Positions 3,987 to 38,967 of a DNA stretch of 44,498 nucleotides are shown piece by piece. The notes beneath the pieces were generated by a model, which did no database searches, had not been told where the DNA came from, and saw only the letters and a program-made list of their open reading frames with translations. The position numbers were made by a program, and so were the translations under genes. Positions within the stretch are counted from its first letter, which is position 1. Each line of letters begins with the position of its first letter. Origin of the DNA: Alphaproteobacteria bacterium (GTDB lineage Bacteria > Pseudomonadota > Alphaproteobacteria > Rs-D84); contig JAKSTC010000008.1 in assembly GCA_024402765.1 (NCBI GenBank), forward strand, positions 1 through 44,498, in the 5' to 3' direction.

Positions 3987-4715
3987 TTATTGTTTTTCAT
4001 ACACATCGGCACAGTATTTTTTACCATCAAACATTGTGCATAAACCATGTTCTGTGCGTCGTCCCACCGGCATAAAAGCGACATAGTTTCCGGTATGCAA
4101 CAAATGCCCACATTGATCAATATTGGTCGCACCTGCCACCGACAACAAGCCGTTTGGGCATGGTGTGCATGGTTCGTTACCAACAAAATCTTTATATGTA
4201 TTTGGTGGGCATAGAGTACATTCCCATATTGCAGGCAATATGTATTCACCATACGGTTCATACGACGATGTATCAAAATTACATACGGTATCGTCCCGTG
4301 GTGGTGTCCAATACGGGTCTGTTGCACGTTGATAGTACAAAATTACACCAGACATTGCTTGCTTGAAAGATGCTGCAGTTGTATAATTTGTATCAACAAT
4401 ACAAACATAATTTTGTACCTGTTTTACTTCTCCATTATTTCCGCCAAACACATGTAATGCATCTGTAACTTGATATTTAGAAGTATATAATGCACTTGCA
4501 CCACTTGTTTTTGATATAAAATCCGATATATTCGCATAAAATGGATTGTTTGCTATTGAAGGATGTCTTATCCAATTCAAACTTCCTAAATCAACACAAC
4601 CACCTAGACCCTGAGTTATTTTATATCCATATCCAACTGGACATTCATCGTTGGCAAATGTGCTAAAACAAAATATACATGATAAAAATGTCAAAAGTAT
4701 GCACCGAAGCAACAT
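3987..4715 (-). CDS. Exported Cys-rich protein with leader RNA
   Basis: This 242-residue protein has a signal peptide ending near STFA, then NDECPVGYGYKI. The middle has no recognisable fold. From about residue 165 there is a Cys-repeat module (WECTLCPPNTYKDFVGNEPC then TPCPNGLL) of the ephrin-receptor/GCC2-GCC3-like type. The last 43 residues (CGHLLHTGNYVAFMP to ADVYEKQ) are nearly identical to the C-terminus of the gene cut by the right edge (44336-44498), so this is a reused C-terminal domain. AGGGAGA precedes ATG 4715. Its mRNA begins with a structured leader of about 240 nt (4716-4954). Function unknown; surface or periplasmic location inferred. Confidence 0.8.
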   Translation of the reverse strand: MLLRCILLTFLSCIFCFSTFANDECPVGYGYKITQGLGGCVDLGSLNWIRHPSIANNPFYANISDFISKTSGASALYTSKYQVTDALHVFGGNNGEVKQVQNYVCIVDTNYTTAASFKQAMSGVILYYQRATDPYWTPPRDDTVCNFDTSSYEPYGEYILPAIWECTLCPPNTYKDFVGNEPCTPCPNGLLSVAGATNIDQCGHLLHTGNYVAFMPVGRRTEHGLCTMFDGKKYCADVYEKQ

Positions 4716-4954
4716 ATAAACTCTCCCTTATATTTTCTTGGTGGTGGCGCATAAATGCGTGGTAAATACGCCACCAAAAAAACCACCGATATGTGTCGAG
4801 TGGTTGGAGGTTAGTAACAATTTAAGTCGAAATTGTGCGCCTATTCTTTATATTCAGCAACCCTCCAACCAAATTTAGTTGGAGATTTTTTACGTCCATT
4901 TTCAGACGCGACTTAACGGGTTACTACACCCCATCACAACACTCTATTGTGACG
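4716..4954 (-). promoter_or_regulatory. Structured leader RNA, copy 1 (attenuator-like)
   Basis: This minus-strand 5' leader contains, in order: a hairpin (4947-4952 with 4934-4939); the 5' strands of two long-range stems, TAGTAAC (4920-4926) and TTAAGTCG (4909-4916); a hairpin (4893-4908); a CTCCAAC/GTTGGAG hairpin (4878-4884 with 4863-4869); the loop GAATATAAAGAATA (4842-4855); and the 3' strands CGACTTAA (4822-4829) and GTTACTA (4812-4818). Next come CCTCCAACC (4802-4810), a hairpin AACCAC/GTGGTT (4800-4805 with 4781-4786) with U7, and a GGTGGCGTAT hairpin (4766-4775 with 4743-4752). Copy 2 at 22121 has the same architecture with different stem sequences. It resembles a riboswitch or attenuator; no known class is recognised. 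Confidence 0.75.
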
Positions 4955-4960
4955 GCACCT

Positions 4961-4969
4961 ATTATACCA
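4961..4969 (-). promoter_or_regulatory. Extended -10 promoter of leader RNA copy 1
   Basis: TGGTATAAT on the minus strand (4961-4969) predicts a start near 4954, exactly where the first hairpin of the leader begins. A weak TTCCAA lies 17 bp upstream (4984-4989). Confidence 0.5.
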
Positions 4970-22120: not shown

Positions 22121-22373
22121 CCGTATCGATAGGCGTTATCGGTATGGGGCGTAAAGACCTCTAAATTCAAGTTACCTGAAGTTTTCAGGTGTGAAACAAA
22201 CTCCAACTATGGGTTGGAGGGCGGCGAATATAAAGAATAAGCCCGCTATTTTCTTGAATTATAGTCTTTAACCTCCAACCACTCGAGAATAAAATCAGTG
22301 GTTTTTTTGGTGGCGTATTTCCACGCATTTATACGCCACCACCAAGGATTAAAACCGGGGGGACGAAAGGAAA
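22121..22373 (+). promoter_or_regulatory. Structured leader RNA, copy 2 (attenuator-like)
   Basis: Elements in order: hairpin 22121-22131/22137-22147; 5' strands TAAAGAC (22152-22158) and AATTCAAG (22164-22171); hairpin ACCTGAA/TTCAGGT (22174-22190); CTCCAAC/GTTGGAG hairpin (22201-22219); invariant GAATATAAAGAATA (22226-22239); 3' strands CTTGAATT (22253-22260) and GTCTTTA (22264-22270); CCTCCAACC (22272-22280); hairpin AACCACT/AGTGGTT (22277-22303) with T7; and hairpin GGTGGCGTAT/ATACGCCACC (22309-22318, 22331-22340). GGTTGGAGG (22212-22220) can pair either locally or with CCTCCAACC, which would break the hairpin in front of T7. Pairing with CCTCCAACC while the long-range stems persist would make a pseudoknot. 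Confidence 0.78.
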
Positions 22374-22982
22374 ATGAAACGATTGTTTTTGATTTTGTGT
22401 TTAATAATAATATGCAATACATCATACGCAGATATTGCATCAGTGGGCTATGTGGATAGCGTTGTTGCGCCTATACAGGATAGTATTTCAAACATTGATT
22501 CAATAAAACAGGATAAATTACCGAATCCACCCAATAATAATGGAATATATAAACTGGTTTGGAACGGCAATACTGGACAAATTGTGTGGGAATTTGAACA
22601 ATATTCATTAACCTGTACACCCAACACATACGACATCGGGTTTAGTCAGTGCATAGACCCAACGATAGAGGGAACAGACTATACATACAATGCGGGTGCG
22701 ATGACGTGGAAAACAGTATTTCCATACGGAAATGTATCGGGTGTTGCGGTGTGTAACGACACATCGGGCAGTTATGCTGTATCATCAACAACGGAACAGG
22801 TAGAAACTGGTGGTGTGATGTGTTGGTGTAAGATGACACATCCGGCTACCTCAAATTGGGTGTTCGACGCCGCGTACTCGTCGTCTTCCGTTTGCGCGGA
22901 CGGTTGCGCGTACGCCTGCGGGCGCCTCGTCCAGAACTACTCGGACTTTCGTTCCGGCGTTTTTTCGTCGGTCGGTCAATAA
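22374..22982 (+). CDS. Exported protein with A-poor, variable-looking C-terminus
   Basis: Start ATG 22374 with GAAAGGAAA upstream. It is 202 residues. The signal peptide (MKRLFLILCLIIICNTSYA) and the next DIASVGYVDSVVA are almost identical to the 38095 protein. A short heptad-like region with IKQDKLPN is followed by a Cys-containing middle domain. The last 41 codons (22857-22979) share with 38095 the pattern C-A-x-x-C-A-x-x-C-G, then S-D-x-R-S-x-V-F. In this stretch only 11 of 123 bases are A, GC is about 63%, and no codon but the last ends in A, unlike the rest of the gene. This resembles a variable repeat of a diversity-generating retroelement target. Ligand-binding surface protein is an inference. 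Confidence 0.8.
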   Translation: MKRLFLILCLIIICNTSYADIASVGYVDSVVAPIQDSISNIDSIKQDKLPNPPNNNGIYKLVWNGNTGQIVWEFEQYSLTCTPNTYDIGFSQCIDPTIEGTDYTYNAGAMTWKTVFPYGNVSGVAVCNDTSGSYAVSSTTEQVETGGVMCWCKMTHPATSNWVFDAAYSSSSVCADGCAYACGRLVQNYSDFRSGVFSSVGQ

Positions 22983-37805: not shown

Positions 37806-37838
37806 ATAAAAAAACAGGCGGTTTTTTGGGTTCATGTG

Positions 37839-38004
37839 GTGGAAAAAAAACCTAGGTTAAAAGTCAACCACTTTTTGCGATAAATATTCATTTTTATAAA
37901 AAACAAAAAACCGCAGATTTCTGCATGTTATAGCAGATTGTTTGTTGACAATAAAATTTTTTGGGGTGGTGGAAATTTAACCTAGGTTTTTGATACCATT
38001 TTTT
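37839..38004 (+). repeat. Two direct repeats with AACCTAGGTT palindromes
   Basis: TGGTGGAAA, a few A/T bases, and AACCTAGGTT occur at about 37838-37858 and again at about 37968-37988, 130 bp apart. Each is followed by a short ACCA segment and T5-T6. The palindrome may be a protein-binding site, or each unit may fold into a hairpin with a U tract. A TTGACA stands between them at 37945-37950 without a good -10. Confidence 0.7.
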
Positions 38005-38094
38005 CTGTGGAAATCTACGGTTTTTACGGTGGCGTATTTACCACGCATTTATACGCCACCACCAAAGATTAAAACCTGTGGGGGGACGAAAGGA
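38005..38094 (+). promoter_or_regulatory. Leader element copy 3: terminator-like hairpin plus GGTGGCGTAT hairpin
   Basis: CTGTGG/CTACGG (38005-38010, 38015-38020, two G-U pairs) with T5 is followed by GGTGGCGTAT/ATACGCCACC (38028-38037, 38051-38060), then the binding site AAAGGA. The second hairpin is the same as in the leaders at 4716 and 22121. The upstream pseudoknot region of those leaders is absent; the AACCTAGGTT repeats stand in its place. Confidence 0.65.
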
Positions 38095-38967
38095 ATGAAA
38101 CGATTGTTTTTAATTTTGTGTTTAATAACGATATGTAATATATCATACGCAGATATTGCATCGGTGGGTTATGTGGACGGTGTTGTTGCGACCAAGCAGG
38201 ATACGATTCCCGATATTGCAACGATTCGAACCGGTGCGGGTCTGGGCGCAACGGCGGTTCAACCATCAACATTATCAACGGTCGCAAAGACAGGTTCATA
38301 TAATGATTTAAGTAACAAACCGACAATACCCACCGTTCCGACGACCATAAGTTCATTTACAAACGACAGTGGATACATAACAACCAGTTACCATGATTCA
38401 ACAAAACAGGATAAATTACCAACAGGTCCCAGTGATGGAAAAAAGTATAGTTTAATTTGGAACGGCAACGGTTTTTCATTTGAAGAATTCACAACTGGGG
38501 GTGATAGCACCCCGATTGATTGGGATGCAATAGATGAGTATTTAAGCAAATTACGTCCATCAGGTTATGCATCATATGGATTAGATGGTCAGCATTGTGT
38601 AGGTATGGATGCCAATTATGATTTGTTTGGTGTAGATGCAGGTGGCAGTTGCAGTGACCCAGAATTTGCGGGCATGGTAGCGGGCGATTGGTATGTGGAT
38701 ATACCAGAAATGAATACCAAGATAGAGGGTCGTGCATTATGCAGTTCGACCAACGGGACATATGCCAGTGATCCGGACGGCAGTGGCAGTGGTGACACAC
38801 GATATTGCTGGTGCAAGATAACAAGTCCGGCTGCTTCGCGTTGGTTGTTCTTCTACGACGACTTCGATGCGGACGATTGCGCGTTCTATTGTGCTTACTA
38901 CTGCGGTAACGACATCCGTGACTTTTCCGATGTCCGGTCGGTCGTTTTTGGGTCGATTGGGCAATAA
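38095..38967 (+). CDS. Exported fibre-like protein with A-poor, variable-looking C-terminus
   Basis: Start ATG 38095 directly after AAAGGA; a longer frame to 37990 runs through the leader hairpins and is rejected. The 290 residues begin with a signal peptide MKRLFLILCLITICNISYA and DIASVGYVDGVVATKQD, matching 22374. A phage-tail-fibre-like segment follows (YNDLSNKPTIPTVP, SSFTNDSGYITTS), then a Gly/Asp-rich domain with several Cys. The last 41 codons (38842-38964) align without gaps to those of 22374, with C-A-x-x-C-A-x-x-C-G, S-D-x-R-S, V-F-x-S. Here 18 of 123 bases are A, and no codon but the last ends in A. A receptor or ligand-binding tip is an inference. Confidence 0.8.
   Translation: MKRLFLILCLITICNISYADIASVGYVDGVVATKQDTIPDIATIRTGAGLGATAVQPSTLSTVAKTGSYNDLSNKPTIPTVPTTISSFTNDSGYITTSYHDSTKQDKLPTGPSDGKKYSLIWNGNGFSFEEFTTGGDSTPIDWDAIDEYLSKLRPSGYASYGLDGQHCVGMDANYDLFGVDAGGSCSDPEFAGMVAGDWYVDIPEMNTKIEGRALCSSTNGTYASDPDGSGSGDTRYCWCKITSPAASRWLFFYDDFDADDCAFYCAYYCGNDIRDFSDVRSVVFGSIGQ

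Follow-up and report, generated by a model that had tools for sequence, protein, structure and literature searches.

A repeated hairpin and a probable switching leader RNA upstream of exported-protein genes in an Rs-D84 alphaproteobacterium

Why do three exported-protein genes on one bacterial contig carry the same short hairpin just ahead of their start codons? The question is raised by contig JAKSTC010000008.1 of an alphaproteobacterial assembly (GCA_024402765.1), analysed over its 44,498 nt and referred to here as the window. It is contig C23 of an assembly (G000) of 921,052 bases in 24 contigs. Reduced genomes have been described for Candidatus Enterousia, in the order Rs-D84 (PMC12306168). 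The hairpin copies were found where a preliminary description, made from the letters of the window, had placed them, at 4743-4775 (minus strand), 22309-22340 (plus) and 38028-38060 (plus), and the start codons that follow are at 4715 (minus), 22374 and 38095. Copy 1 is a U.G pair variant (ATGCGCCACC), and the change from A-U to G-U that had been reported for it is correct when read on the strand of the gene. The downstream genes code for an exported cysteine-rich protein of family b with an Ephrin_rec_like domain (3987..4715, minus), an exported target protein of a diversity-generating retroelement (DGR), family a (22374..22982, plus), and an exported DGR-type protein, also of family a (38095..38967, plus). 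No matches to the exact 33-mer are expected from dinucleotide shuffles of the window, and a reversed control pattern had none in genome G000. The observation is thereby confirmed, and chance does not account for it.

A genome-wide search, with the downstream genes listed, returned 19 copies at 18 loci, 15 of them matching the strict pattern and four having C for A at the loop-closing position; at one locus (L009) two copies stand in tandem. Every copy is oriented as a downstream ORF with an export signal (19/19), and coding regions contain none. The distance from hairpin to start codon is about 19-36 nt, except that the upstream member of the tandem is 75 nt away and that an offset of 17 at L019, which corresponds to an alternative upstream start, falls outside this range. 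A covariance model of the hairpin (R2) detected 19 copies in G000 and nine in a sister species (G097). Those nine, too, all stand ahead of genes for exported proteins. In 154 further genomes of the genus the model gave no credible match. Each of the 28 copies is 5' of a gene, in a single orientation, and the hairpin is an accessory limited to the two sister species.

The changes seen between copies bear on the level at which the hairpin acts. In the sister species the stem is GGTGGTGTAT/ATACACCACC, a compensated double change relative to G000, and GGTGGTGTAT/ATACGCCACC, with a U.G pair, is also present; five copies in G000 have a U.G pair at another position. Since the opposite strand would have A.C mismatches where the mRNA has G.U, these pairs, together with the compensated change, indicate that the hairpin acts as RNA of the gene strand. 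When folded in its natural context it formed independently in every copy tested. Between the two main gene families, identity is 0.95 over the hairpin, 0.61 over the preceding 150 nt, 0.56 over the following 18 nt and 0.39 in the initial stretch of the ORF. In one orthologous pair (L001 in G000 and L239 in G097) the leader sequences described below are identical over 150 nt and the hairpins differ, each being of its own species' type. The identity profile and this pair point to concerted evolution of the hairpins, whether through selection, conversion or both.

In one rival explanation the hairpin regulates nothing by itself: a small palindromic repeat, REP- or MITE-like or brought along by gene duplication and conversion, would have spread together with a gene family's 5' regions. 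Its confinement to two sister species, a near-uniform sequence within each genome that changed jointly between the two, the single tandem pair and recombination among paralogous 5' regions (for example, the chimaeric leader at L017) are all in keeping with this. However, unrelated gene families have the hairpin at the same spot and the genome has it nowhere else, identity drops sharply on either side of it, and the compensated and G.U changes preserve stem pairing on the mRNA strand only. REP and MITE sequences, which go with a cognate transposase, are dispersed over varied intergenic positions. As far as position goes, the 28 copies do not show this distribution. A passive repeat is judged unlikely. 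A different reading is that the hairpin is the recognition site of one RNA-binding protein or small RNA, by which the marked surface-protein mRNAs would be controlled post-transcriptionally. The conservation of sequence beyond pairing across unrelated genes (the 0.95 against 0.61 and 0.56 given above) speaks for it, as do the loop UU and the CGCAUU, which are invariant among the variants compared from both species, and the joint alteration of stem and remaining loop in the sister species; but conversion among paralogues yields the same pattern, and folding of seven copies gave no sign of a switch with the ribosome-binding site. We hold a recognition site to be rather doubtful.

Several other roles were considered and rejected. 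Folding of seven copies gave no clear support for an effect on access to the ribosome-binding site, and insulation or masking of that site by the hairpin had little effect in these folds. For the three window copies, the absence of a T run behind the hairpin speaks against a second terminator. An integron attC site appears unlikely from the arrangement of the copies, which are dispersed and form no array, and a DNA cruciform for retrohoming from the distance to the variable region, which begins several hundred bp downstream of the hairpin. No known RNA family matched the window at its gathering score, and nothing relevant appeared at E <=5 in the loci tried. Some function of the hairpin at the RNA level is quite likely, and within such a function protection of the message is possible rather than probable.

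It had also been stated that each hairpin directly follows another hairpin and a run of five to seven T. This is true of copies 1 and 2, where the "hairpin + T7" appears to be the intrinsic terminator of a structured leader RNA of about 180 nt, and this leader, rather than the hairpin, seems to be the main regulatory object. The idea of a shared RNA element on a surface-protein regulon is partly supported: it holds up for the hairpin, in both species and in its pairing changes, but had missed the leader. Along the leader the order is a -10 box, hairpin P0, closing helix P1, helices P2, P3, P4 and P5, and the terminator; 72 of 84 leaders have their own -10 box with five or six matches to TATAAT, and P0 is present in 84/90. 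Leader 1 (P1 to T run, class A) occupies 4776..4933 on the minus strand, with strand a at 4884-4878, b at 4870-4862, c at 4810-4802 and the terminator at 4805-4776; P0, at its 5' end, is at 4932..4954 and the TATAAT box at 4961..4966. Leader 2, also class A, lies on the plus strand at 22145..22308 (P1 to T run; strand a 22201-22207, b 22212-22220, c 22272-22280, terminator 22277-22308), and its P0 is just 5' of it, at about 22122-22144.

Such a leader, ending in a terminator, stands upstream of the hairpin at 15 of the 18 loci: at 13 the hairpin follows without a gap, at L006 the last part of a leader is found at the contig end, and at L009 the leader is a related one. The hairpin begins 0-3 nt past the T run. 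The two elements also occur apart. At least five leaders in G000 (L063-L067) and the leaders of all other species viewed have no hairpin, while hairpins at L004, L015 (window copy 3) and L019 have no leader, and some copies in G097 have other upstream regions. From this it follows that the effect of the hairpin would be a separate one, exerted either on mRNA that extends beyond the terminator or on mRNA from another promoter, and the best reading of the hairpin is a lineage-specific add-on in the read-through mRNA, for protection or recognition.

At copy 3 the claimed terminator is weak. A 6-bp stem (38005-38020) is followed by TTTTTAC, giving a terminator-like element at 38005..38024 (plus) that lies outside the leader family, and in the sister-species homologue (L234) the T run is lost, with TATTGAC in its place. 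The leader model gave only weak, low-complexity matches to the region 5' of this copy. A distinct upstream region precedes copy 3 (37820-38027 of the window) and its relatives at L004 and L234. It contains two direct repeats, GTGGTGGAAA..AACCTAGGTT, in which the palindrome AACCTAGGTT occupies 37849-37858 and 37979-37988; there is also a pairing over a long range, ACCGCAGATTTCTGCA/TGTGGAAATCTACGGT. This region is perhaps an operator-controlled promoter.

How might the leader act? Its strands can pair in two exclusive ways. In the first fold P1 and P4 (a:b) are formed and the terminator is free; 94.6% of cells are paired, and its support is far above that of slid controls. In the second, b pairs with c and hairpin PX forms, with 97.5% of cells paired and one PX pair split between UA (44) and AU (41). 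Double changes number 264 against 73 in shuffles for the first fold and 68 against 25 for the second. These counts depend in part on an alignment that was fitted to the first fold, and related sequences inflate them. A stronger argument for the two folds is that independent sequence classes and outgroups agree. Between class A (GGTTGGAGG/CCTCCAACC), class B (GGTCAGGAGG/CCTCCTGACC) and single variants, the three strands a, b and c change jointly. The b:c helix runs for at least eight pairs in 86/90 leaders, and among 17 outgroup leaders it has at least 9 bp in all, in many different sequences, and an a:b match of 7-10 bp is kept in all but one.

Strand c and the 5' arm of the terminator share the sequence AACC. 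The helices are mutually exclusive and one overlaps an intrinsic terminator, as in attenuators and riboswitches; covarying exclusive folds of this kind are the signature of transcription attenuation, and the leader is very likely to be a transcription attenuator. PX could instead form a pseudoknot with P2 rather than exclude it. A leader peptide was rejected, as start codons read off the alignments are unconserved. One leader (L017:1353-1500) is chimaeric, its 5' half resembling L002 and its 3' half L010, so that helix P1 is broken; such a chimaera is a sign of recombination between leaders. In other species, two to four leaders are found in tandem within about 1 kb (L040, L048, L049, L152 and L157).

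Covariance models were built from ten leader copies (R1) and from 94 sequences (R3). R1 matched 87/96 genomes of the genus and 170/183 of the family, in all 13 genera, and its matches are weaker in other families of the order; with R3, 289 genomes sampled from the class were searched, and 12 that lie outside the order have leaders. Full searches of five genomes gave 19-43 copies in each. Signal-peptide-like N-termini, recognized by a hydrophobicity rule and not a trained predictor, follow 64 of the 85 leaders with a readable ORF, and 20 of these 64 ORFs have a DGR-type variable motif. Many of the remaining leaders precede small proteins, several with HTH domains, and outgroup leaders precede proteins that, by their sequence, resemble outer-membrane barrels, lipoproteins, HTH proteins and, in one case, a prepilin. 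Proteins of 60-84 aa that form one family (MRIGHQIEATRQKLGIPVFKMCDILA...TTYQKIMFIA; L036, L043, L049, L051, L080 and L100) recur behind leaders in several species; the two members tested had no Pfam match, and the family may regulate the regulon. Three IMG/VR viral contigs (L240, L241 and L242) contain an exact match to the core pattern of the leader, which may reflect misassigned bacterial sequence or carriage by phage.

The nearest curated relative is sRNA-Xcc1 (RF02221), reported as an 88-nt RNA in Xanthomonas (PMC2996969). Its consensus fold, a closing helix and two hairpins, corresponds to the second fold of the leader, in which b:c is joined by P5 and PX; covariation is seen in b:c and in PX. 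Matches to RF02221 in 16 genomes are mostly sub-threshold (E down to 7.5e-9) and at least 14 coincide with R1 or R3 matches; the model also finds copies with GGTCGGGG/CCCCGACC strands (class C). Its gathering score of 53 bits is not reached in G000 (best 41.2) or the genus (best 51.8), and is exceeded by one outgroup copy (L259, 56.2), where the match falls inside an R3 match. As the window leaders score below the curated cut-off, they are regarded as distant relatives of sRNA-Xcc1 and not as members.

An alternative is that the leader, like sRNA-Xcc1 as reported, is a separate gene for a trans-acting small RNA, with a terminator of its own, and does not regulate the surface genes in cis. Its own -10 box and terminator, the cloning of its relative as an 88-nt RNA and the occurrence of leaders in tandem would suit such a gene. 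Yet the 19-43 copies in each of the five genomes are all oriented as a gene that starts shortly past the T run, and in integron cassettes sRNA-Xcc1 is itself found upstream of symE (PMC12444791). The overlap of strand c with the terminator arm also means that the choice of pairing bears on termination, and we consider a trans-acting RNA improbable.

The exported genes connect the leader to a DGR. Proteins of family a end in a hypervariable, cysteine-containing region. In the gene at 22374..22982 this region (22841..22975, plus) has 15 of its 21 mismatches to the template repeat at template adenines, while that of the gene at 38.1 kb (38826-38960) has diverged much further from the template, and this gene may depend on another or a lost template. 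The 136-nt template repeat (L021:6143-6278) lies beside the only RVT_1 reverse transcriptase in the genome (L021:6846-7919), which is judged to be DGR-type from its motifs and surroundings. In the neighbouring variable region, at the 3' end of a gene, 13/13 mismatches fall at template adenines; over all targets, the share of differing cells is 58% at template adenines and 14-17% at other bases. The variable regions at L001, L003, L006, L015 and L016 have many non-adenine differences from the only template found, suggesting other or lost templates. Between template repeat and reverse transcriptase is a 108-aa ORF (L021:6517-6843) with no Pfam or PADLOC match, possibly a DGR accessory protein of the Avd type. 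At L009 the tandem hairpins stand ahead of the gene cluster with the DGR. Model R1 misses the L009 leader, which resembles a class C copy matched by RF02221 (L260) and folds alike; its proposed kinship is based on that fold and similarity.

Taken as a whole, a two-part 5' leader, made of a switching RNA and the hairpin, is a probable model. An RNA of about 180 nt would start at its own -10 box and fold in one of the two ways. In the OFF state P1, P2, P3 and P4 (a:b) would form, leaving strand c free to enter the terminator; in the ON state b would pair with c as an antiterminator, P5 and PX would form as hairpins, and the terminator would lose its 5' arm to this pairing. Some signal (a metabolite, a protein or the timing of transcription) would select the state and thereby control a surface-protein regulon that includes the DGR targets and, through the related leader, the cluster holding the retroelement. 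The 33-nt hairpin would be present only in read-through mRNA, most likely as a stable fold, either protecting the message or serving as the target of a trans-acting factor.

A genome of less than 1 Mb with dozens of such switches on surface genes would point to one dominant environmental or cell-state signal. Covariation supplies an exact antitermination model, and the leader model ties RNA-based control to a DGR with many dispersed targets; the sister species pair offers a natural system for an added post-transcriptional layer, the hairpin. The title of a 2011 paper on sRNA-Xcc1 reportedly calls it trans-acting, and the antitermination model would turn it into a cis leader. We propose tentatively, as something close to but short of an even chance, that Alphaproteobacteria and other bacteria have a large class of cis-acting switching leaders, of which sRNA-Xcc1-like RNAs are only the part seen so far, and that in gut Rs-D84 one signal acts via dozens of copies on a surface regulon including the DGR targets and the DGR operon, so that diversification and display would switch together.

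Riboswitches and transcription attenuators likewise have exclusive helices before the regulated gene, one of which uses up the 5' arm of the terminator. The leader differs in having no known ligand or aptamer and no match to an Rfam riboswitch, and in that one design occurs up to 43 times per genome before surface genes. Stabilising stem-loops of the ompA type are stable hairpins in the 5' UTR of surface-protein mRNAs, before a single-stranded ribosome-binding site. The hairpin described here has the same placement, but it is not at the extreme 5' end unless the leader is cut off, and its sequence is conserved across unrelated genes. With sRNA-Xcc1 the leader shares the closing b:c helix and the P5-like and PX-like hairpins, in identical order, as well as a position upstream of a gene (symE in the Xanthomonas cassettes; PMC12444791). 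Rfam, however, covers only an 87-nt 3' half in one conformation, labelled sRNA, whereas the unit here is about 180 nt long with P0-P4, a second fold and a terminator, and is present dozens of times ahead of exported-protein genes, for the most part scoring under the curated cut-off. As in other DGRs, there is a DGR-type reverse transcriptase, a template repeat and variable 3' ends with adenine-specific mismatches; unlike them, several variable regions are too diverged for the sole template found, and the many dispersed targets have a common leader and hairpin.
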